Below are positions 15,233 to 24,955 of a stretch of 64,000 nt of DNA, one piece after another. A program made the translations under genes and the position numbers. Source of the stretch: Rosistilla oblonga (GTDB lineage: Bacteria; Planctomycetota; Planctomycetia; Pirellulales; Pirellulaceae); the NCBI RefSeq assembly GCF_007751715.1, contig NZ_CP036292.1, positions 992,001-1,056,000 of the forward strand, given 5' to 3'. Below the pieces are notes generated by a model. The model was not told where the DNA came from. It saw only the letters and a list, made by a program, of their open reading frames with translations, and ran no database searches. Numbering within the stretch: position 1 is the first letter of the stretch; each line of letters begins with the position of its first letter.

Positions 15233-16450
15233 ATGAAGAAGTGTGATATGACACAACCGCGAACTCTCCGGTTGCCCCCAAGGGCAGCGTGCAACGCAAC
15301 CTTTGTAGTGGCGATCCTGCTAGCAGGAACCGCATCTGCGCAGGGGTGGCCATTCAACGACGCCCCCGAACCGGTTGGATTTGGAATCCTGCAGACTGCA
15401 AATCAAGCTGCAGTTGGTCAACCCGATCACGGCGGCAGCGGCGTGATCATGTCGGCCGAAGCATTGGAACTGGGCCCCGGCGAAGAGGTTATCGGTGGCG
15501 ATCCGATCCTACGACAATCGGGGATCATTCGCCAACCTGCTGGCGGCGGCGTCTCGGGCGGATCCCATCTACCGCTGAATCAATCGGGGCACGGCGCCCA
15601 TCGCCGCCCACGTGGCCGAACACACTTCGGACCCAACGACTGCTATGACTGTGCTTGGGGCTGTCCCGACGGTTGTGCTCCAGCATTTTACGGCAGCTTC
15701 GACGGACTTTATTTCACTCAAGGTGATATGGATTCCGCGAACTACAGCAGCAACCCTTTCGGATTTGTCGGCGACGACTACCAGCCCGGCGTGCGTTTCA
15801 CCGTTGGCCGAATGTTTAATTGCTCCGATGGGTTTGAAACGACTTTCACTGGTCTGCTGGAATGGGAATATGGTGGCAACGATTTAGTGACCACCGCCAA
15901 TGAACGCCAAGACTTCAAAACTCGATTCAACAGTATTGAGTTTAACCATCGACAATGGGGCTGGGATGTGATCTCGACCGTCGCAGGTGTTCGCGTCATT
16001 CGTTACGAAGAGCGATTTGATATGACATCCGATGATCCCCTTAACAGAACTCTTGGACGGGCATACCAGCATGACATCGATAACACGATGGTCGGTGCTC
16101 AGTTGGGGCTCGATCTGATGTATCCGGTGATGAAACGGCTGATGGTTGGAAGCCGTATTCGCGGCGGACTCTATGCTAACTTTACCGATACTGACATCGG
16201 CCTAATCAACTTTTCGGATGTTCGCTTTGCAAGTTCTGCAGATCACACCGACATTTCAGGCTTGATCGAATACGGCATCTCGGCCGACTACCACTTCACC
16301 AACTTCCTCTCCGCCAAGATTGGCTACGAGTTCTGGTACTTGATGAACGTCAGTACGGTTGCTGCGAATCAGTCGGCAGCATTTGTTTCCGGCGAAACCG
16401 ACGAGGTCGGATTCCACGGTGCGACAGCTTCGGTCGAAGTTCTGTTCTAA
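15233..16450 (+). CDS. BBP7-like outer-membrane beta-barrel protein
   Basis: A 405-residue protein with a signal peptide ending at 'GTASA' before QGWPF. A Gly/Pro/His-rich linker (about residues 37-130) leads to a Cys-rich patch 'CYDCAWGCPDGCAP' and then a barrel that opens with 'FYGSFDGLYFTQGDMDSANY' and ends in 'EVLF', an outer-membrane C-terminus. This matches the BBP7 family of planctomycete barrels. Ligand and role unknown. A GAGG site lies a few nt before the ATG. Two in-frame ATGs (15233 and 15248) are possible starts. It follows the pilus-N/BON-like gene by 70 bp and is probably co-transcribed with it, ending at the hairpin at 16495. Confidence 0.72.
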   Translation: MKKCDMTQPRTLRLPPRAACNATFVVAILLAGTASAQGWPFNDAPEPVGFGILQTANQAAVGQPDHGGSGVIMSAEALELGPGEEVIGGDPILRQSGIIRQPAGGGVSGGSHLPLNQSGHGAHRRPRGRTHFGPNDCYDCAWGCPDGCAPAFYGSFDGLYFTQGDMDSANYSSNPFGFVGDDYQPGVRFTVGRMFNCSDGFETTFTGLLEWEYGGNDLVTTANERQDFKTRFNSIEFNHRQWGWDVISTVAGVRVIRYEERFDMTSDDPLNRTLGRAYQHDIDNTMVGAQLGLDLMYPVMKRLMVGSRIRGGLYANFTDTDIGLINFSDVRFASSADHTDISGLIEYGISADYHFTNFLSAKIGYEFWYLMNVSTVAANQSAAFVSGETDEVGFHGATASVEVLF

Positions 16451-16951: not shown

Positions 16952-18100
16952 ATGTCTATTATTGGGTTATTGCTGATTGCTGCGGGGCTCGGTCAAGTGA
17001 CCGTCGACCGCGTCGATGGGCAAAGGGTCTCGGGCGAATGGGTGGCGATCGACGAAAACGCGATCTCGATCCAGACCGCCGGTAAAACCGAACAGTTCCC
17101 GCTCGAATCGGTCGTCAAACTGCAACGCGACGCCGATTCATCGACTTCCCCCACCGCGGTCCGCGTCGGGCTGGCCGACGGCAGCCAATTGCTCACCCGC
17201 GACGTGAAGATGCAGGGCAAGTCGGTGGAGATCGATCTGCTGGGGGCCGCGGCCGACGACGCTCTGTTGAGTGTCCCCGTCTCGCAAGTCGCGTCGATCC
17301 GCTTCCGCCCTCCAGTCGCCAAAGCGATCAACGATCAATGGGAGCAGAAGCTGGGGGCCGACAAGCCGTCGGACACCTTGGTCGTGCGAGCGGGCAACGA
17401 TCAATTGGACGAAGTCGCCGGGACCGTGCTGGCGATCAACCGCGATGCGGTCTCGTTCGATCTTGGGGGCCAACAGGTCGAAGCTCCGCTGGATCGCTTG
17501 GAAGGGATCGTCTTCCGCAGCAGCGACGGCGACGCGGCACGCATTCAAGCTCAGATCACCGACGCCGGCGGATCGACTTGGTCCGCTAGCAAAATCACCG
17601 GCCAGGGGAAGACGCTGCAGCTGGAGACTCCCGCCGGCATCTCTCGCTCGATCCCCTTGGATCGGATTCACCAAATCGAATTCCGCGGCAACGTGCGAAT
17701 GCTGCGAGCCGCCGACGCGGCAAACGTCTCTTTCACCGCTGCGATCGGCGGGCTTTTGGATCCCGAATTTTCCAAGTCGATGTTTGGCCCGCGCGATGTC
17801 GCTGCGGGGATAGCGTTGTCGGCTGGTTCGGAACTGACGATCCGGTTGGGCGACGACGACCGCTTGTTCGAAACGATCGTCGAAACTCCCAACCGCTCCT
17901 TCGACGGCGGCGTCGTCCGTTTGGTGATCCAGTTGGACGATGATGCGGCGTTGGACAAGAAGCTGACGGCGGCGGAATTGCCCGAAGCGATCCAATTGGA
18001 TGTCGCGGGGAAACGACGGATGCAGATCCGCGTCGAATCGGGGCAGGATAGTTCGACCGGAGATGCTCTTCTGCTCAGGAAACCGAGGTTGCGAAAATGA
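16952..18100 (+). CDS. Secreted beta-domain-repeat protein, NPCBM-like C-terminus, first gene of the HtrA-like operon
   Basis: A 382-residue exported protein; a short signal peptide (MSIIGLLLIAAGLG) is followed by three or four related beta modules. Each has a form like 'VDGQRVSGEWVAIDENAISI' then 'FPLESVVKLQ'; others are 'LDEVAGTVLAINRDAVSFDL' with 'APLDRLEGIVF', and 'SIPLDRIHQIEFRGNVRML'. The last 150 residues resemble the NPCBM/NEW2-like galactose-binding fold used by planctomycetes in secreted proteins; this is a similarity by eye only. The stop overlaps the start of the next gene by 4 nt (ATGA), so translation is coupled to the HtrA-like protease. The module repeats suggest a binding or scaffold role in the same compartment. 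Confidence 0.6.
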   Translation: MSIIGLLLIAAGLGQVTVDRVDGQRVSGEWVAIDENAISIQTAGKTEQFPLESVVKLQRDADSSTSPTAVRVGLADGSQLLTRDVKMQGKSVEIDLLGAAADDALLSVPVSQVASIRFRPPVAKAINDQWEQKLGADKPSDTLVVRAGNDQLDEVAGTVLAINRDAVSFDLGGQQVEAPLDRLEGIVFRSSDGDAARIQAQITDAGGSTWSASKITGQGKTLQLETPAGISRSIPLDRIHQIEFRGNVRMLRAADAANVSFTAAIGGLLDPEFSKSMFGPRDVAAGIALSAGSELTIRLGDDDRLFETIVETPNRSFDGGVVRLVIQLDDDAALDKKLTAAELPEAIQLDVAGKRRMQIRVESGQDSSTGDALLLRKPRLRK

Positions 18101-19815
18101 TCGACCGGAAATCGTTTTTAGCCGCGTGTCTGCTTGTCGCCCTGCCGGCAACCAGTGGGGCTGCGGATGTCGATGCAAGTGTTTTGAAAGCCGAAGCGGA
18201 TCGGATTGCGGCGATCGCCGAGGCGACCAAGTCGGCTGTTAGCGTGTTTGTTCCTAGCGGAGCGGGGGGCGGCAGCGGAGTGGTCATCGATCCCGAAGGT
18301 TTCGCGCTGACCAATTTCCACGTCAGCAGCCCCGCGGGTGCCTACATGGTCTGCGGGATGGCCGACGGGAATCTATACGACACCGTGATCGTGGGAATCG
18401 ATCCGGTCGGCGACCTGGCTCTGGTCAAGCTGCTGGGACGCAGCGACTTCTCCGCCGCAGAGCTAGGTAACAGCGACCGCGTCCAACAGGGCGATTGGTG
18501 CATGGTGATCGGCAACCCGTTCCTGCTGGCCAACGACCTGCAACCGACCGTCACCTGGGGATTGATCAGCGGCGTCCATCGCTATCAATATCCGTCGGGA
18601 ACGCTTTTGGAATATGCCGATTGCTTGCAAACCGACGCGTCGATCAACCCAGGAAATTCGGGCGGTCCGCTGTACGCCGCCGATTCGAAATTGATCGGCA
18701 TCGTCGGCCGTGCCTCCTTCGAAAAACGGGGCCGCGTAAACGTTGGCGTCGGCTATGCGATCTCGATCAACCAAGCCAAGAATTTCCTCGGCTATCTGCA
18801 CAGCGGCCGGATCGTCGACCACGCCACGCTAGGTGCGACCGTTGCCACCGACGAAGGGAAGGTGATCGTCAGCAACATCCTCGAGAACTCCGACGCCTAC
18901 CGCCGCGGGCTGCGTTACGGTGCCGAAATCCTGGCGGTCAACGGCCGCGACGTCGCGTCGGCTAACGATCTGCAAAACGTGCTCGGCACGCTTCCCAAGG
19001 GCTGGCGAGTGCCGATCAGCTTCCGCCACGAAGGCCGCAACGTCGACACGATCGTCCGCTTGGCGGGCGTCCACGGCCGCGATGAACTGCTGGAGAAGAT
19101 GGCCGCGTCGATGCCGCCACCTCCACCCCGACCGAAGCAAAAGGAAGGGGACGCCGAGAAGGATCAGATCGCCGCTGCAAATGCGCACGACGCCGAACTG
19201 CCCGCGTCGGTCGAAGCGGTTTACGAAGCCAAACATGGATACGCCAATTACTACTTCAATCGACTGCATCAGCAGCGGTTGTGGGAGTCCTTAAAAAAGC
19301 ACAGCCCCGATGCGTCGGGATCTTGGACGATCGAAGGCCCGACCGACAACGATGGCCCCGTGCTGGAGTTGACTCTGGGCAAGCAGGTCTCGATCGCAAC
19401 CGATGGTGGCCAACCGACTCTCCTCGACCCGACCGCTCTTTACGACGGGATCGATAGCCAGCAATTGCCCGCTTTCGCCGCTTGTCTGGACGCGTGGCAT
19501 CGGATGGTTGAATTGGGGCCGGATCGATTCGGTGAGGTCTATTATCTGGGGACGATGCCACTGCGTGGCGAATATCCGCTCCGCGACGTCTTGGTCGGCA
19601 CCTCCGGAGAACTCGAGTCATGGTTCTACTTCGATCCGGAATCGGGGCGGCTGGAAGCTGTCGAATGCTGGGCCGATCGCTTTCGCGACCCGGCGGAGTT
19701 GTTGATCGAAGCGGGGGACAATAATCAACCCGTGGGACTGTCGCTCTACTTCGGCGAGCGACGGGCTTGGCGGATGCAGGTCGAACAATGGAAGGCGTCG
19801 GCAAATGAACAATAG
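18097..19815 (+). CDS. HtrA/Deg-like trypsin-fold serine protease with PDZ domain, intact triad
   Basis: A 572-residue exported protease. The signal peptide ends near residue 23 (GAA). The trypsin-like domain has His75 in 'LTNFHV', Asp106 in 'PVGDLALVKL' and Ser188 in 'INPGNSGGPLY', so all three catalytic residues are present. One PDZ domain spans about residues 240-330 ('VSNILENSDAYRRGLRYGAE', 'ILAVNGRDV'). A Pro-rich link ('PPPPPRPKQKEGD') leads to a 215-residue C-terminal domain of no known family, more than classic DegP or DegS carries. It starts inside the previous gene (4-nt overlap), and its last 11 nt overlap the next gene. Likely role: periplasmic protein quality control or regulated cleavage, with its triad-less neighbours as possible partners. 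Confidence 0.88.
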   Translation: MIDRKSFLAACLLVALPATSGAADVDASVLKAEADRIAAIAEATKSAVSVFVPSGAGGGSGVVIDPEGFALTNFHVSSPAGAYMVCGMADGNLYDTVIVGIDPVGDLALVKLLGRSDFSAAELGNSDRVQQGDWCMVIGNPFLLANDLQPTVTWGLISGVHRYQYPSGTLLEYADCLQTDASINPGNSGGPLYAADSKLIGIVGRASFEKRGRVNVGVGYAISINQAKNFLGYLHSGRIVDHATLGATVATDEGKVIVSNILENSDAYRRGLRYGAEILAVNGRDVASANDLQNVLGTLPKGWRVPISFRHEGRNVDTIVRLAGVHGRDELLEKMAASMPPPPPRPKQKEGDAEKDQIAAANAHDAELPASVEAVYEAKHGYANYYFNRLHQQRLWESLKKHSPDASGSWTIEGPTDNDGPVLELTLGKQVSIATDGGQPTLLDPTALYDGIDSQQLPAFAACLDAWHRMVELGPDRFGEVYYLGTMPLRGEYPLRDVLVGTSGELESWFYFDPESGRLEAVECWADRFRDPAELLIEAGDNNQPVGLSLYFGERRAWRMQVEQWKASANEQ

Positions 19816-20815
19816 AATTCGATGCGTGATCGTGGCGTTGCTGGCGACGCTGGTCCTGAACACCGCCACGCTGCGGGCTCAGTATCCCGTCAAAAAGACG
19901 ATCCAAGACGCGCGGCGTAAAGTCGTGAAGGTCTACGGTGCCGGTGGGCTGGGAGGTTTGGAAGCCTATCAAAGCGGTTTCCTCGTCTCTCCCGAAGGGC
20001 ACATCGCGACGGCCTGGAGCTATGTCCTGGACGTTGATCCCGTGGTGATCCTCGACGACGGGCGACGCTTCGAAGCCGAAGTTGTCGGATTTGAACCCCA
20101 GTTAGAACTGGCGGTCTTGAAAATCGAAGCGGGCGATTTGCCCTACTTTGCGATTCGCGAGGTCCCACCGACGCAAGCCGGCCAGCCGGTGCTAGCGATC
20201 AGCAACCTGTTTAACATCGCCACCGGACGCGAGCCCGCGAGCGTGATGCAGGGCTACGTCGCGGGCGTTGCCGAATTGGACGCTCGCAGCGGCGTCTTCA
20301 AATCGGCTTATCAAGGCGAGGTCCTGATCTTGGACTTGGTCGCCAATAACCCCGGCGCGGCGGGAGGTGCTTTGGTCACGCGAGCTGGCGAATTGGTCGG
20401 CATGCTGGGGAAGGAACTTCGCGACGCGCGTAGCGGTGCTTGGTTGAACTACGCCCTTCCCGCAACGACGCTGCGGCCGCGGCTGCTAGCGATCGTCTCG
20501 GGCGAAGCGATCGTTGAGCCGCCAAAAACGGAGCTGTTGGCTCGCGACAAATCGCATAATTTCCAAACGCTGGGGTTGTTGATGGTCCCCAATGTCTTGG
20601 ACCAGACGCCCGCTTACGTCGACGCCGTCGTGCCGAAATCGCCCGCCGCCGCGGCGGGGCTGAGGCCCGACGATTTGATTCTGTTGGTCGGGAAGGTCCG
20701 GATCGAAAACCAGGACCGCCTGTTGGAGCAGCTGCGTAGCATCGATCGCCGCGATCCGGTATCGGTCGTCCTGCAGCGGGGCTCGGAAATCTTGTCGCTG
20801 AGACTGGTTCGATAG
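19805..20815 (+). CDS. HtrA-like pseudoprotease with PDZ domain (triad lost)
   Basis: A 336-residue exported protein; signal peptide MNNRIRCVIVALLATLVLNT, cleavage near LRAQ. It aligns along the trypsin-like domain of the upstream protease, but every catalytic position is changed: the His site is Ser72 ('ATAWSYV'), the Asp site is Glu101 ('QLELAVLKIE') and the Ser site is Ala186 ('NNPGAAGGAL'). The glycines and prolines around the active site are kept, so the fold is probably intact. A C-terminal PDZ domain (about 250-336) has 'VPKSPAAAAGLRPDDLILLV'. It overlaps the upstream gene by 11 nt and the next gene begins 9 nt after its stop. It is most likely a non-catalytic binding or regulatory partner. 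Confidence 0.82.
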   Translation: MNNRIRCVIVALLATLVLNTATLRAQYPVKKTIQDARRKVVKVYGAGGLGGLEAYQSGFLVSPEGHIATAWSYVLDVDPVVILDDGRRFEAEVVGFEPQLELAVLKIEAGDLPYFAIREVPPTQAGQPVLAISNLFNIATGREPASVMQGYVAGVAELDARSGVFKSAYQGEVLILDLVANNPGAAGGALVTRAGELVGMLGKELRDARSGAWLNYALPATTLRPRLLAIVSGEAIVEPPKTELLARDKSHNFQTLGLLMVPNVLDQTPAYVDAVVPKSPAAAAGLRPDDLILLVGKVRIENQDRLLEQLRSIDRRDPVSVVLQRGSEILSLRLVR

Positions 20816-20824
20816 TCAGTTAGG

Positions 20825-22786
20825 ATGAAACACATGAGACAAAACAACCAGTCGCCGCGGCCAGGCCGCCGGTTTATCACGCCGTTTGTTGCGGGCCTTG
20901 GGCTGGCCGTCGCGGTTGCCGCGTCGCTGTCGCCGAGCATCGCAAACGCTCAAGACGCCGAATACGCAGCGATCCAACAAGCGATCCAACAGACGGCTGG
21001 TGCCGTCGTGCAGATCGAAACGATCGGAGCTTCGGCATCGCAGGGAGAACTGACCCTGGGAGCGCCGATCTCGGGAACGCGGATCGATGACCAAGGGCAT
21101 ATTCTGACCAGCCTGTGGGGCTTGGAAGAGACGCCGGCGAGCATCTTGATCGTCGAAGCGGATGGTTCGCGGCAGCCAGCCGAACTTGTCGCGCGGGACT
21201 TCAGCCGCGAACTGGTGCTGCTGAAAACAAAGCCTAGCGGTTCGGGGAACCATGTCGCGTTGCAACGCAAGGAAAAGGTGCGAGTTGGCCAGTGGGCGAT
21301 CGCAGTCGGCCGCGGGATCGCGCCGGAAACTCCTTCGGTTTCGATCGGCATCGTCAGTGCCACCGGGCGGATGTACGGCCGAGCCGTTCAGATCGATGCT
21401 CGAATTTCACCGTCGTTTTACGGCGGTCCAGTCGTCGATATCGAAGGCGAAATGATCGGAATCTCGGTCCCGATGAAACCCGAAGCCGGTTCGGCGGGAG
21501 AGAAGTCGGACTGGTACGATTCGGGGATCGCCTTTGTCGTTTCAGCCGAAGCAATCGCCAGCCGGATCGACCAAATGAAGGCGGGGAAAGACATTCGCGC
21601 GGGCAAGCTGGGGATCGTACCGGCCAGCAAGATGCCATTTTCCGATGACCGCACGCTGTCGGCGGTCCTGGCCCTCTCGCCAGCGAAACGAGCCGGCATT
21701 CAAGCCGACGACGAACTGTTAGCGATCGATGGAGAAGCGGTCCGCTGGAACGCTGATATCAAACAACTGCTGGGGCCACGCGATGCGGGAGAGGTCTTGA
21801 AAATCAAGGTCCTCCGCGACGAGAAGGAACTGGAATTCGAGGTCGAATTGGCCGCTGATATCCCCGCTTTCCGGCCTCGCGTCCTCGGCGTGCTGGCCGA
21901 TCCGCAGGGCGAATCGCTGGAAATCACTTACATTTTTGACGACTCAGCCGCCGCCAAGGCGAAGCTGCAGATCGGCGACACGATCCAAGCGATCGATGGC
22001 AACAAGATCGACGACGTCGATCGAGCCCGGTTGTTGGTGATGACACATCCTCCCGGCGAGGACTTGGATTTGACAGTCCTGCGCGACGGCAAACCGTTGG
22101 ACGTTCGTTGCGACCTGCAATCGACTCCCGCAACCGTCGTTGCCGAACTGCCCGAACTGAAGGATCCGATCGGCGAAGAGGCTTGGGAGATCGTCCCCCG
22201 TTCGCTGCCCGACGTCTCGAACAAGAGTTGTCTACTGAAGCCGAAGGGAGACAAAGGACCGCAGCTGGGCCTGTTGGTCTTGTTGGCTCGCCCGGGTACC
22301 GAGAAATTGGAACCGTTGGTCGAAGCATGGCGCAGCGTCGCGGCGAAGCATCAATTGGCGATCCTGGCGATCGGGCCGGCCGAAGGCGATCGCTGGAAGC
22401 CCGCCGAATCGGACGTGATCGTGCGGTTGATTCAACAGACGCAACAGGCGATCAACGTCGCGCCGCAACAGATCGTCGTCGGCGGTTTCGGAGCGGGAGC
22501 GGAGATGAGCATGTTGGTCGCGCTGCGTGACCGCGAACTGGTCCGAGGTGGCATCGCCGCTTCGGGCAGCCGCCCCGGCGGGTTTGCGTTGAGCGAAAAC
22601 GATCCCGCCTCGCCGGTCCAATTTCTTGTCGTCGGCGGAACCGAGATGCCTGTCTGGGGACGCGTGATCGCCAACGTTGGTTTCCCCGTATTGCAGCAGC
22701 CATCGACGGAGAAGGAACCGTTGGCGGATGACCCTAAAGTTCGCGATGCGGTCGGACGTTGGATCCGATCGTTGGAACGGATCTGA
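20825..22786 (+). CDS. HtrA-like pseudoprotease with two PDZ domains and an inactive-looking alpha/beta-hydrolase domain
   Basis: A 653-residue exported protein. The N-terminus has a twin Arg (GRRF) before the hydrophobic part, with cleavage near IANAQ (residue 42). In the trypsin-like domain the His site is Trp98 ('LTSLWGL'), the Asp site Glu129 ('FSRELVLLKT') and the Ser site Tyr199 ('SPSFYGGPV'). Two PDZ domains follow at about 245-340 ('ALSPAKRAGIQADDELLAID') and 345-430 ('DSAAAKAKLQIGDTIQAIDG'). Residues about 470-653 look like an alpha/beta hydrolase, but the nucleophile elbow reads 'GGFGAGAEMS' with Gly556 where Ser is expected. Both enzyme-like domains therefore seem catalytically dead. 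Spacing to both neighbours is under 10 nt, so it belongs to the same transcript. Confidence 0.8.
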   Translation: MKHMRQNNQSPRPGRRFITPFVAGLGLAVAVAASLSPSIANAQDAEYAAIQQAIQQTAGAVVQIETIGASASQGELTLGAPISGTRIDDQGHILTSLWGLEETPASILIVEADGSRQPAELVARDFSRELVLLKTKPSGSGNHVALQRKEKVRVGQWAIAVGRGIAPETPSVSIGIVSATGRMYGRAVQIDARISPSFYGGPVVDIEGEMIGISVPMKPEAGSAGEKSDWYDSGIAFVVSAEAIASRIDQMKAGKDIRAGKLGIVPASKMPFSDDRTLSAVLALSPAKRAGIQADDELLAIDGEAVRWNADIKQLLGPRDAGEVLKIKVLRDEKELEFEVELAADIPAFRPRVLGVLADPQGESLEITYIFDDSAAAKAKLQIGDTIQAIDGNKIDDVDRARLLVMTHPPGEDLDLTVLRDGKPLDVRCDLQSTPATVVAELPELKDPIGEEAWEIVPRSLPDVSNKSCLLKPKGDKGPQLGLLVLLARPGTEKLEPLVEAWRSVAAKHQLAILAIGPAEGDRWKPAESDVIVRLIQQTQQAINVAPQQIVVGGFGAGAEMSMLVALRDRELVRGGIAASGSRPGGFALSENDPASPVQFLVVGGTEMPVWGRVIANVGFPVLQQPSTEKEPLADDPKVRDAVGRWIRSLERI

Positions 22787-22792
22787 TCGCCG

Positions 22793-23134
22793 ATGAGCAG
22801 TGAAAACAAAATCGACATCCAACGCGTGCTGATCTTGATCGTCGCGGTCGTTCTGCTGGCGTGGGGCGGGATCGGCGAATTGATGAGCGATCGACTGGGC
22901 CAATCGGTCTCCAACGCCGCCTTGCTGCGGGTTGGATTTGTGCTGTTCGCATGTTGGGTCGCCTACCCTGTCGTCCGTCGCCCCACGGCGTGGCTGGCTC
23001 CTGGGGCGACAGCGATCGGAGTGATCTTGATCGGTGCGGCGTTCTTCAATCCCAAATTGCTGATCGTCTTGATCCCGCTGTTCGGTTCGCTGCTAGCGTT
23101 TGGAGCGTTCATACGCTACTTCCGCTCTTCATAG
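22793..23134 (+). CDS. Small three-span membrane protein, last gene of the HtrA-like operon
   Basis: A 113-residue protein with three hydrophobic segments at about residues 12-30 ('VLILIVAVVLLAWGGIGELM'), 42-60 and 70-105 ('LLIVLIPLFGSLLAFGAFIR'). It begins 6 nt after the stop of the two-PDZ pseudoprotease, so it is probably co-transcribed and may anchor or assist that set in the inner membrane; this is inferred from position. No family was recognised. Confidence 0.7.
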   Translation: MSSENKIDIQRVLILIVAVVLLAWGGIGELMSDRLGQSVSNAALLRVGFVLFACWVAYPVVRRPTAWLAPGATAIGVILIGAAFFNPKLLIVLIPLFGSLLAFGAFIRYFRSS

Positions 23135-23632
23135 CTGGCGTTTGCGCCGCCATCGGTCTGGATCGCGAAGCGTTTTTCACCTCTTCCGATCCACTTCACC
23201 TCTCGCCGGCGGCCTTCTGGGGACGCGGTTTCACCAGGGGGCGGAACGTTCGCTTTCGGTTCGCCGCGGCTCTGCGAAAACGACTTTGGCCAGCCGCCGA
23301 GTTGTCCGTTGGCACACGCGTTCGACTCGCTGCTGGCTGCGCAACGCGCCACCGTAAGCTACGCAGAATCGTGAAGACCAACAAAATCGGAAAAAACCGT
23401 ATCGGCTGCATATTCGTTTGGCCGAAAACTAGACAGGAAACAGGTTTGCGCTAGGCATCGCTGCTCGGCTGAAACCCGTTACCGTCAAAACGCATTTGCC
23501 GATCAGGCAGATCGATCCAGAAGGTTTTTGTTAGGTGGCAGCGACACTGGTCTCAGACCGCTTTCACCGGTAGAGAATCGCAGCAAGAGATCCAACGGGA
23601 TCCACAAATTGAACTTAGGGAGGGGGGATACC
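23135..23632. other. Intergenic/leader region, 498 bp, no gene seen
   Basis: No credible coding frame. It ends in an unusually strong purine-rich ribosome site (GGGAGGGGGG at about 23618-23627) directly before the BON-protein ATG. The stretch may contain the end of the HtrA-like transcript and the promoter and leader of the BON gene, but no clear terminator or promoter was found. Confidence 0.5.
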
Positions 23633-24955
23633 ATGCGACGACTATTTGTCGGTATGGCAATGATGGCAACGATGTCGATGCCGCTGAGTGCGTGGTCGGG
23701 AGATCGCGAGATCGCCGAACAGATTATTGCAAAGCTGAAGACGCATCGCGACTCGGGCGCGTTGAAAGATTTTAAGGTCGACCTGAAGGTCAACGATGGC
23801 GTGGTTGCCTTCAATGGCAGCGTCGCTTCGGCGACTCAACGCAAGTTGGTGCTCGACGCAACCAAGAGCGTCGATGGCATCAAAGACATCGTCGACGGGA
23901 TGCAACTGCCTGCTGCAAATGCAAGCAAAGCTGCACCATCGTCGGCACCTACTTTGGTAAAGACGAAGCCTGCTGTTAAAGCTGTACCAAGCAGCAAGGG
24001 TGTTTCTTCGATCAAGATGCCGCAACCGGTAATGATCGTCGACGCCAACGCGACTGGCGTTGTCAAACCCGCTGCCGATATCAAGGCTCTGGGGCTCGTA
24101 AAGCCGACCGGTCAGGTGATCGCTCCCGAAGCGATGGTTCAACCTGTCGCCGGTCCTGTGACTCAATTGGCTTCGTCGGTCGAACCGATCGAAGCTGGCG
24201 ACCGCGACCGCGAACTCAACGCACGGATCACCAAGGCTTTGACGCAAGCAAAGCAAGATGGTCGTCTGCGTGGATTTGCAATGGACATCACCACCAACGG
24301 TGGCGAAGTTTGGTTGCAAGGCCGCACCGTGACCGCGGAACAACGTCAAACGATGTTGGAAATCGTTCGCAACGTGCCAGGTGTCAACAACGTTTTGGAT
24401 GACATCAAGGTGATGATGCAAGGCAACGGAGCTAAGGTTCGCCAAGCATCCGATTCGGTTCCCGTCTTCGCTGCGGCACCGGTTCCAATGCCATCGCCAG
24501 GACTTGCTCCTGCGTCGGTTCGTCCCGTTCCACGCCCCGCGGTTGCTCAAGCAGCACCACACGCTGGAATGGCTCGTTCGCCAGCACGCATGATGCCGGT
24601 TCCTTATCGTCCTAGCACCATGCCACAACCGTATGCCAACGCATCTCACGGAATGGCAGTTAACCGCGCGTCGATGATGGGTGGTCAACCGATGCCGATG
24701 CAACCTGCATCCGCTGGAATGGCTTATGGTTCGCCACGAACCGATCAGCCCAACTTGCCTAACTACGCATGGCCCGGCTACTCGGCTTACCCAAACTACG
24801 CCGCGTTGTCGTACCCCAAGCAGTACAGCCCATCGGCTTGGCCTTACATCGGCCCGTTCTATCCTTATCCCCAAGTGCCATTGAACTGGCGTAAGGTGAC
24901 ACTGGAATGGGACGACGGATGGTGGCAGCTGGACTACTCTTCGAAGTCTCGCTAA
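23633..24955 (+). CDS. Exported protein with two BON domains
   Basis: A 440-residue protein from ATG 23633, which has the strong ribosome site and a signal peptide (MRRLFVGMAMMATMSMPLSA); the frame is open 105 nt further upstream. BON domain 1 covers about residues 25-95 ('VDLKVNDGVVAFNGSVASAT', 'SVDGIKDIVDGM') and BON domain 2 about 187-258 ('MDITTNGGEVWLQGRTVTAE', 'NVPGVNNVLDDIKV'). BON domains bind phospholipid membranes or act as periplasmic adaptors. The C-terminal 170 residues are rich in P, M, A and Y with repeated 'YPNYAAL/PYP' motifs and end in a conserved 'PLNWRKVTLEWDDGWWQLDY'. Likely periplasmic or envelope-associated. A strong terminator follows 38 bp after the stop. Confidence 0.82.
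   Translation: MRRLFVGMAMMATMSMPLSAWSGDREIAEQIIAKLKTHRDSGALKDFKVDLKVNDGVVAFNGSVASATQRKLVLDATKSVDGIKDIVDGMQLPAANASKAAPSSAPTLVKTKPAVKAVPSSKGVSSIKMPQPVMIVDANATGVVKPAADIKALGLVKPTGQVIAPEAMVQPVAGPVTQLASSVEPIEAGDRDRELNARITKALTQAKQDGRLRGFAMDITTNGGEVWLQGRTVTAEQRQTMLEIVRNVPGVNNVLDDIKVMMQGNGAKVRQASDSVPVFAAAPVPMPSPGLAPASVRPVPRPAVAQAAPHAGMARSPARMMPVPYRPSTMPQPYANASHGMAVNRASMMGGQPMPMQPASAGMAYGSPRTDQPNLPNYAWPGYSAYPNYAALSYPKQYSPSAWPYIGPFYPYPQVPLNWRKVTLEWDDGWWQLDYSSKSR

Follow-up and report, generated by a model that had tools for sequence, protein, structure and literature searches.

An HtrA-like protease gene and two conserved triad-less paralogues in one operon of Rosistilla oblonga and related planctomycetes

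What keeps two relatives of an HtrA-like protease that have lost the catalytic triad in one operon with an intact copy? The question is raised by the window, a stretch of 64,000 nucleotides (nt) of the Rosistilla oblonga genome (GCF_007751715.1, contig NZ_CP036292.1, positions 992,001 to 1,056,000, forward strand), in which five genes, named here P1 to P5, lie on the + strand between 16952 and 23134 (Table 1). P1 and P2 overlap by 4 nt and P2 and P3 by 11 nt; 9 nt separate P3 from P4, and 6 nt P4 from P5. An earlier note on this DNA had described the middle three as tightly packed trypsin-fold/PDZ genes of a single strand, and the open reading frames (ORFs) and the Pfam matches agree: Trypsin_2 was found in P2 (3e-27), P3 (5.1e-21) and P4 (2e-19), with the profile nearly fully covered in each, followed by one PDZ domain in P2, one in P3 and two in P4. 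The NCBIfam and PDB matches of the three proteins are HtrA/Deg proteins (DegP/DegQ in the PDB for P2). DegP, DegQ and DegS (Do/HtrA) belong to the MEROPS family S1C; P2, P3 and P4 share with them the trypsin-like fold followed by PDZ, and P2 also the triad. They differ in that P3 and P4 are triad-less, every score of the NCBIfam HtrA models against P2 to P4 is under the model cut-off, and P2 has an extra C-terminal domain.

Table 1 Features of the operon (positions in the window; counts refer to aligned rows; aa, amino acids).
Feature	Position	Strand	Description
P1, secreted-looking protein, 382 aa	16952..18100	+	beta N-terminal part (weakly SH3-like); C-terminal NPCBM carbohydrate-binding-type domain, residues 284-379
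P2, HtrA-like protease with catalytic triad, 572 aa	18097..19815	+	signal-peptide-like start, trypsin fold, one PDZ, C-terminal domain of ~210 aa
P2 His75 codon (catalytic)	18319..18321	+	
P2 Asp106 codon (catalytic)	18412..18414	+	
P2 Ser188 codon (catalytic)	18658..18660	+	
P3, triad-less HtrA-like protein, 336 aa	19805..20815	+	trypsin fold and PDZ
P3 Ser72 codon, His position (T-A-W-S-Y-V-L-D)	20018..20020	+	S 92, N 8, T 1 of 101
P3 Glu101 codon, Asp position	20105..20107	+	E 70, D 22, other 9 of 101
P3 Ala186 codon, nucleophile position (NPGAAGG)	20360..20362	+	A 85, G 7, T 4, P 3, H 1, S 1 of 101
P4, triad-less HtrA-like protein, 653 aa	20825..22786	+	trypsin fold 83-213, two PDZ, C-terminal alpha/beta-hydrolase-like domain
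P4 Trp98 codon, His position	21116..21118	+	F 61, Y 14, I 7, W 5, L 3, A 3, T 1, H 1, M 1 of 96
P4 Glu129 codon, Asp position	21209..21211	+	M 46, E 9, D 2, rest mixed, of 96
P4 Tyr199 codon, nucleophile position (S-P-S-F-Y-G-G)	21419..21421	+	Y 94, F 1, V 1 of 96
P4 C-terminal alpha/beta-hydrolase-like domain	22160..22783	+	nucleophile elbow GFGAG in place of GxSxG
P5, membrane protein, 113 aa	22793..23134	+	no Pfam match

The loss of the triad in two paralogues beside an active one, first noticed in the window, is general across the sampled class, and the site residues named for the three proteins in the earlier note are all correct on the alignment. P2 has H/D/S and GNSGG in all 98 aligned rows, whereas the H/D/S triad is found in 0 of 101 P3 rows and in 0 of 96 P4 rows (the rows include the window and two close copies of it from the same genus). 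The replacement residues of P3 and P4 are distinct: position 72 of P3 is His in none of the 101 rows and the oxyanion-hole Gly184 is kept in every one of them; in P4, by contrast, the oxyanion Gly (position 197) is replaced, with Gly present there in 1 of 96 rows. A broken trypsin fold in P3 or P4 was considered and rejected. The AlphaFold2 models (mean predicted local distance difference test score 78 for P3 and 77 for P4, from shallow alignments of 8 and 4 rows) matched Deg structures in Foldseek searches of the PDB: DegS/DegQ/DegP for P3 (4.8e-22; template modelling (TM) score about 0.55 and root mean square deviation 8-12 over protease and PDZ jointly) and DegP for P4 (1.1e-31; TM score 0.80 to DegS by target length). 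Judged by sequence, P3 and P4 are HtrA relatives by descent and fold, and not proteases.

The possibility that P3 and P4 are ordinary HtrA duplicates was rejected after a survey of the same genome, which holds 20 Trypsin_2 matches in 18 ORFs, P2 to P4 among them (where an ORF has two matches, the first was read). H, D and S are intact in 11 of the 15 other ORFs; two are altered (K/D/C and H/E/F), and two cannot be judged, one being unaligned at His/Asp and the other having no usable match. Since most of the other Trypsin_2 ORFs keep H/D/S, the triad loss in P3 and P4 goes beyond chance. The survey also revealed an adjoining pair of Trypsin_2 ORFs (L099, G000:C1:6119210-6120617), a 345-aa frame with H/D/S intact and a 391-aa frame with K/D/C, and two tandem Trypsin_2 matches within one ORF (L100, G000:C1:2336717-2337994).

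Gene order was compared in two samples: 60 loci of the family, taken around the best P3 match (126 of 149 family genomes have P3 at 3e-60 or better), and 40 further loci picked across other families of the class. The order P2-P3-P4 is conserved in 56/60 and 37/40 loci, respectively. The family exceptions are L067, without P4, L088 and L090, at contig ends, and L094, without a P2 match; in L046, P4 is split over two frames. The class exceptions are L166, where P3 stands alone, and L167 and L168, both without P4. The ratios of non-synonymous to synonymous substitution rates (dN/dS), calculated for three species sampled in the genus, are low: 0.04-0.07 for P2 and for P3, and 0.14-0.15 for P4. With synteny kept, replacement residues consistent and dN/dS low, the triad-less genes are neither absent nor decayed in most sampled relatives, and their decay was rejected.

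The three genes also mostly occur and disappear together. Among 198 genomes of the class, counted by hand with cut-offs of our own choice (P2 1e-50, P3 1e-30, P4 1e-25), P2, P3 and P4 are present together in 146, none is present in 49, and 3 are mixed (G316 without P4; G162 and G321 without P2). The 49 trio-free genomes comprise 45 of one family (f12, which we take to be perhaps Isosphaeraceae) plus G153, G158, G255 and G322. All three genes are kept in some genomes where the operon is dispersed: they lie far apart in the one-contig genomes G167 and G269, P4 is distant from P2-P3 in the one-contig genomes G212 and G314, and the genes are spread over several places or contigs in G250 and G164.

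The trio extends beyond the class. A search of the phylum with P4 (246 genomes) gave 19 loci outside the class, taken for strong or paired P4 matches. Fifteen of them (L188-L201, L207) are trio loci, with P2-P3-P4 in 14 (L189 leaves the contig before P2) and P1 also present in 10; in the eight that were aligned, the His position of P4 is aromatic, its Asp position is not Asp and its nucleophile position is Tyr, and P3 lacks the His (two P3 are unaligned at the nucleophile). Eight relevant named planctomycete loci (L208-L215), from among the 80 loci listed in a scan of named genomes with the general INPGNSGG motif, include P2 in 8, P1 in 7, P3 in 7 and P4 in 3 (L208, L209, L212) among the matches listed; L211 and L215 stop shortly past P3. 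A tree of 122 protease domains (126 rows less L192_P3, L200_P3, own_269907 and own_5949581), built with a quick method and with Shimodaira-Hasegawa-like approximate likelihood ratio support only, has 55 weak branches out of 119; P2 (support 99), P4 (99) and P3 (90) each form a single group. The members of a more distant set join the P3 (89), P4 (97) and P2 (86) sides. Because of this grouping, the two dead lineages look old and separate, predating the class.

The distant set was observed in four loci of other classes (L202-L205): two or three members in another gene order, an active one beside dead or half-dead ones with F/D/V, F/D/S, H/D/L and T/E/D at the triad positions. Its P4-like members, with one or two triad residues, are possible intermediates in triad loss.

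Class-wide and cross-class retention, consistent replacements, low dN/dS, joint presence and absence, and retention when dispersed together support the earlier suggestion that P3 and P4 are selected non-catalytic paralogues beside the active P2. The recurrence of the trio in several classes of one phylum likewise suggests that the dead copies are kept as working partners.

The neighbourhood of the trio points to a wider system. A same-strand gene for a coiled-coil-like protein (P0) lies upstream of the trio in 72/100 loci (38/60 family, 34/40 class), followed by a second gene (P0b) in all the loci inspected except L158. Among 20 loci with long flanks, 16 have P0, P0b and a third conserved gene plus VWA-, BatA- and DUF58-type genes as far as the stretch reaches, and four (L299-L302) have none of the P0/Bat-cluster genes. 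The upstream genes typed in L295 matched DUF58 (1.4e-50), the BatA N-terminal domain (1.1e-13) and, weakly, VWA; three of the four frames scanned upstream of DUF58 are of the MoxR type (AAA_3, about 1e-63, vs about 1e-10 for bpMoxR), and the frame picked in L314 matched nothing. Since 16 of the 20 long-flank loci show the cluster genes and 72 of 100 loci show P0, the usual site of the trio is the end of a MoxR/DUF58/BatA/VWA cluster; it is detached in the window genome and in some family members. A P0 profile had no match in the 64,000 nt of the window, and the cluster of this genome (MoxR-DUF58-BatA-VWA-P0-P0b, with MoxR matching AAA_3 at 4.9e-64) lies at about 2.530-2.543 Mb, apart from the trio. 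P0b is present at 1e-30 or better in 149 of 153 genomes outside family f12, and only as weak matches in 20 of the 45 f12 genomes; it is absent along with the trio in G153, G158 and G322, and the two disagree in G220 (trio without P0b) and G255 (P0b without trio). A very large PQQ-type protein is encoded upstream of the MoxR cluster of the window genome (L311, G000:C1 about 2.530-2.548 Mb).

P4 and P2 carry further domains. The trypsin fold and PDZ domains of P4 were borne out as first described; a C-terminal alpha/beta-hydrolase-like domain, missing from the earlier note, has to be added. The last ~210 residues matched Abhydrolase_2 just at the cut-off, and single hydrolase families matched at most 9 of the 43 proteins scanned at E<=0.01. 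The C-terminal profile matches the esterase LC-Est1C (2.9e-11); repeat-rich TAL proteins also match, without a stretch of their own. The GxSxG of an active serine esterase reads GFGAG in the window P4, and of the 88 rows without a gap at the elbow column, 4 have Ser there; for three of these (L072, L079, L098) the surrounding alignment is gapped. P4 is short in some class members (357-450 aa, e.g. L148, L152-L157), and the P4 frames measured outside the class span 354-562 aa, except L207 (640 aa). The C-terminal domain of P2 (window 19174-19812) is present in P2 homologues; it had no PDB match at E<=1 and gave weak Pfam-type matches at E<=0.05 to DUF4292 (6/41) and LolB (1/41).

On balance, we lean with some reserve towards a periplasmic HtrA proteolytic module, in which P2 would cut and the old paralogues P3 and P4 would be kept for non-catalytic work in the same process; the roles first proposed for them, hetero-oligomer regulators or substrate receptors, are plausible. 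Because its oxyanion Gly is kept and its nucleophile is mostly replaced by a small residue, P3 may bind peptide without cutting it, acting as a substrate-holding or allosteric subunit. P4 would have a closed pocket and serve as a scaffold or regulator, because Tyr fills its site and the oxyanion Gly is lost; this would involve its PDZ domains and, in most class members, the esterase-like domain, mostly serine-less. Trimers are the natural form of HtrA, and P2, P3 and P4 probably assemble, at least transiently, as mixed trimers or cages tuning P2. A further role, tethering of the module to glycans, may fall to P1. Because the trio comes after the MoxR/DUF58/BatA/VWA cluster in most sampled relatives, the process at large is probably envelope homeostasis, to which that system contributes. 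A bolder version, which we regard as tentative and on the whole doubtful, would make the trio an ancient heteromeric periplasmic HtrA machine, spread widely through one phylum, in which one subunit would cut and two dead ones, the first peptide-binding and the second pocket-filled, would be obligatory; it would form the proteolytic arm of the MoxR/BatA/VWA envelope system and a counterpart of mixed protease rings. ClpP/ClpR, a ring of active and inactive subunits, is alike in that a protease would include paralogous subunits that do not catalyse, and differs in fold and compartment.

Several observations weigh against the module. P4 can leave the operon or was not found near P3 (L067, L166, L167, L168), and no P4 was seen past P3 in the stretch examined of L210 and L213; L214 (Phycisphaerales by title; record partly masked) has P0-P0b-P1-P2, with no P3 or P4 found. 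The Asp position is still D in 22 of the 101 P3 rows and one P3 has Ser at the nucleophile position, and the P4-like members of L203 and L205 keep two triad residues. The MoxR/Bat cluster is physically separate from the trio in the window's own genome, and a single deletion of the whole operon can mimic functional co-loss.

The strongest competitor, which we consider unlikely but well above the others, has P3 and P4 working in the same envelope pathway as separate non-catalytic proteins, either holdase chaperones or PDZ scaffolds, without ever touching P2. HtrA proteins also act as chaperones, P4 has extra domains of its own, and the dispersed genes (G167, G269; G250, G164) are all kept without an operon; nevertheless, the three genes are almost always present or absent as a set and usually lie side by side, which favours a tight functional unit. 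That P3 and P4 are mere relics heading for loss, held by operon structure only, is scarcely credible: P4 is indeed missing (L067, L167, L168) or split (L046) in a few loci, but the replacement residues are consistent throughout the class, dN/dS is 0.04-0.15 and the genes are retained after dispersal. Cryptic catalysis through another nucleophile is hardly more probable; it could draw on the oxyanion Gly of P3 (101/101) and on Ser72 (92/101), against which P3 has no base-position His in 101 rows and mostly Ala at the nucleophile, and P4 has Tyr at the nucleophile and, in nearly all rows, no oxyanion Gly.

Two further alternatives come from better known systems, and both are improbable, the second marginally more so. 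Repurposing of P3 or P4 for metal or small-ligand binding would follow the example of MamO, a dead HtrA that binds transition metals according to the accessible part of PMC4794232, and would fit the strongly conserved new motifs at the former active site; the search identified no ligand motif, the di-His site of MamO not being part of the comparison. The trio might instead belong to a MoxR-vWA biological-conflict (immunity-like) system. The available part of PMC7159879 describes vWA-MoxR ternary systems, planctomycetes included, in which the trypsin domains at the effector position are nearly all catalytically inactive, a parallel worth keeping in view, and genes for MoxR and VWA proteins usually precede the trio. 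However, DUF58 and BatA-type proteins are among the partners here, the starts of the HtrA proteins are signal-peptide-like, the gene order is conserved over many families, unlike that of variable conflict loci, and the MoxR genes match AAA_3 far better than bpMoxR. The Pfam scan of upstream genes showed no VMAP, iSTAND, FtsH pair or beta-propeller-vWA, although no search was aimed at these in particular.

The nearest known parallel to the module is MamE/MamO, where an active and a degenerate trypsin-2/HtrA paralogue likewise share one gene cluster and the dead MamO is needed for MamE-dependent proteolysis (PMC4794232). MamO resembles P3 and P4 in its degenerate triad. It has a non-Gly residue at position 193 (PMC4794232, in the part available), a feature shared by P4 (95/96 non-Gly) and not by P3 (Gly in 101/101). 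The trio differs in having two dead lineages with PDZ in both, in having no magnetosome genes recognised alongside, in the absence from P2-P4 of a TauE transporter domain by Pfam, and in being found across classes of one phylum rather than in magnetotactic bacteria. As to MoxR/Bat clusters, same-strand DUF58, BatA and VWA genes (with MoxR upstream where typed) precede the trio in most sampled relatives, as they do in those clusters; HtrA pseudoproteases are, however, unmentioned in the Bat literature as represented by the accessible text of PMC3557215, and cluster and trio are apart in the window genome. Deletion of bat in Leptospira biflexa gave no oxidative-stress phenotype (PMC3557215, same text), and a role in 'aerotolerance' is therefore not to be assumed.

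The literature on Pirellulaceae and planctomycete HtrA, MoxR and pseudoproteases, covered mostly by titles, yielded no earlier description of a planctomycete HtrA/pseudoprotease trio. HtrA, DegP, PDZ and serine protease are unmentioned in the main text of an essentiality study (PMC10632474), and 'catalytic' and 'inactive' in the accessible part of a study of microbial PDZ proteins (PMC6411480); the bacterial HtrA pseudoproteases that we found described, in sources partly available, are those of magnetotactic bacteria. New here are the oxyanion-Gly contrast between P3 and P4, the mostly serine-less esterase-like domain of P4, the NPCBM domain of P1 and the MoxR-DUF58-BatA-VWA link. With two distinct and consistent triad losses across classes, the trio is a natural test of the role of dead protease subunits, and it connects HtrA with the MoxR/Bat envelope system, itself poorly understood.

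The outer genes of the operon differ in standing. The earlier note had counted both P1, as a secreted beta-domain protein, and P5 as further members. P1 holds its place as a conserved neighbour, upstream of P2 in 54/60 family and 38/40 class loci (dN/dS 0.10-0.20), and its beta N-terminal part stands; its description is corrected by the C-terminal NPCBM domain (1.2e-6 in the window by Pfam), found at the end of 44 of the 45 P1 proteins scanned (the window and 44 of 90 homologues), and the P1 profile matches CBM-type structures (PDB 7js4, 2vmg). P5 (dN/dS 0.11-0.16) is poorly conserved and outside the conserved core, and was rejected as a core member: among the 60 family loci, matches above 60 bits are confined to two loci of the same genus and to L093. 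The operon is flanked upstream by a gene for a porin-like protein, weakly of the BBP7 type (window 15233-16450), and downstream by one for a BON-domain protein (window 23528-24955); across the 60 family loci, the best match next to the trio is never the former and in 5 loci the latter.

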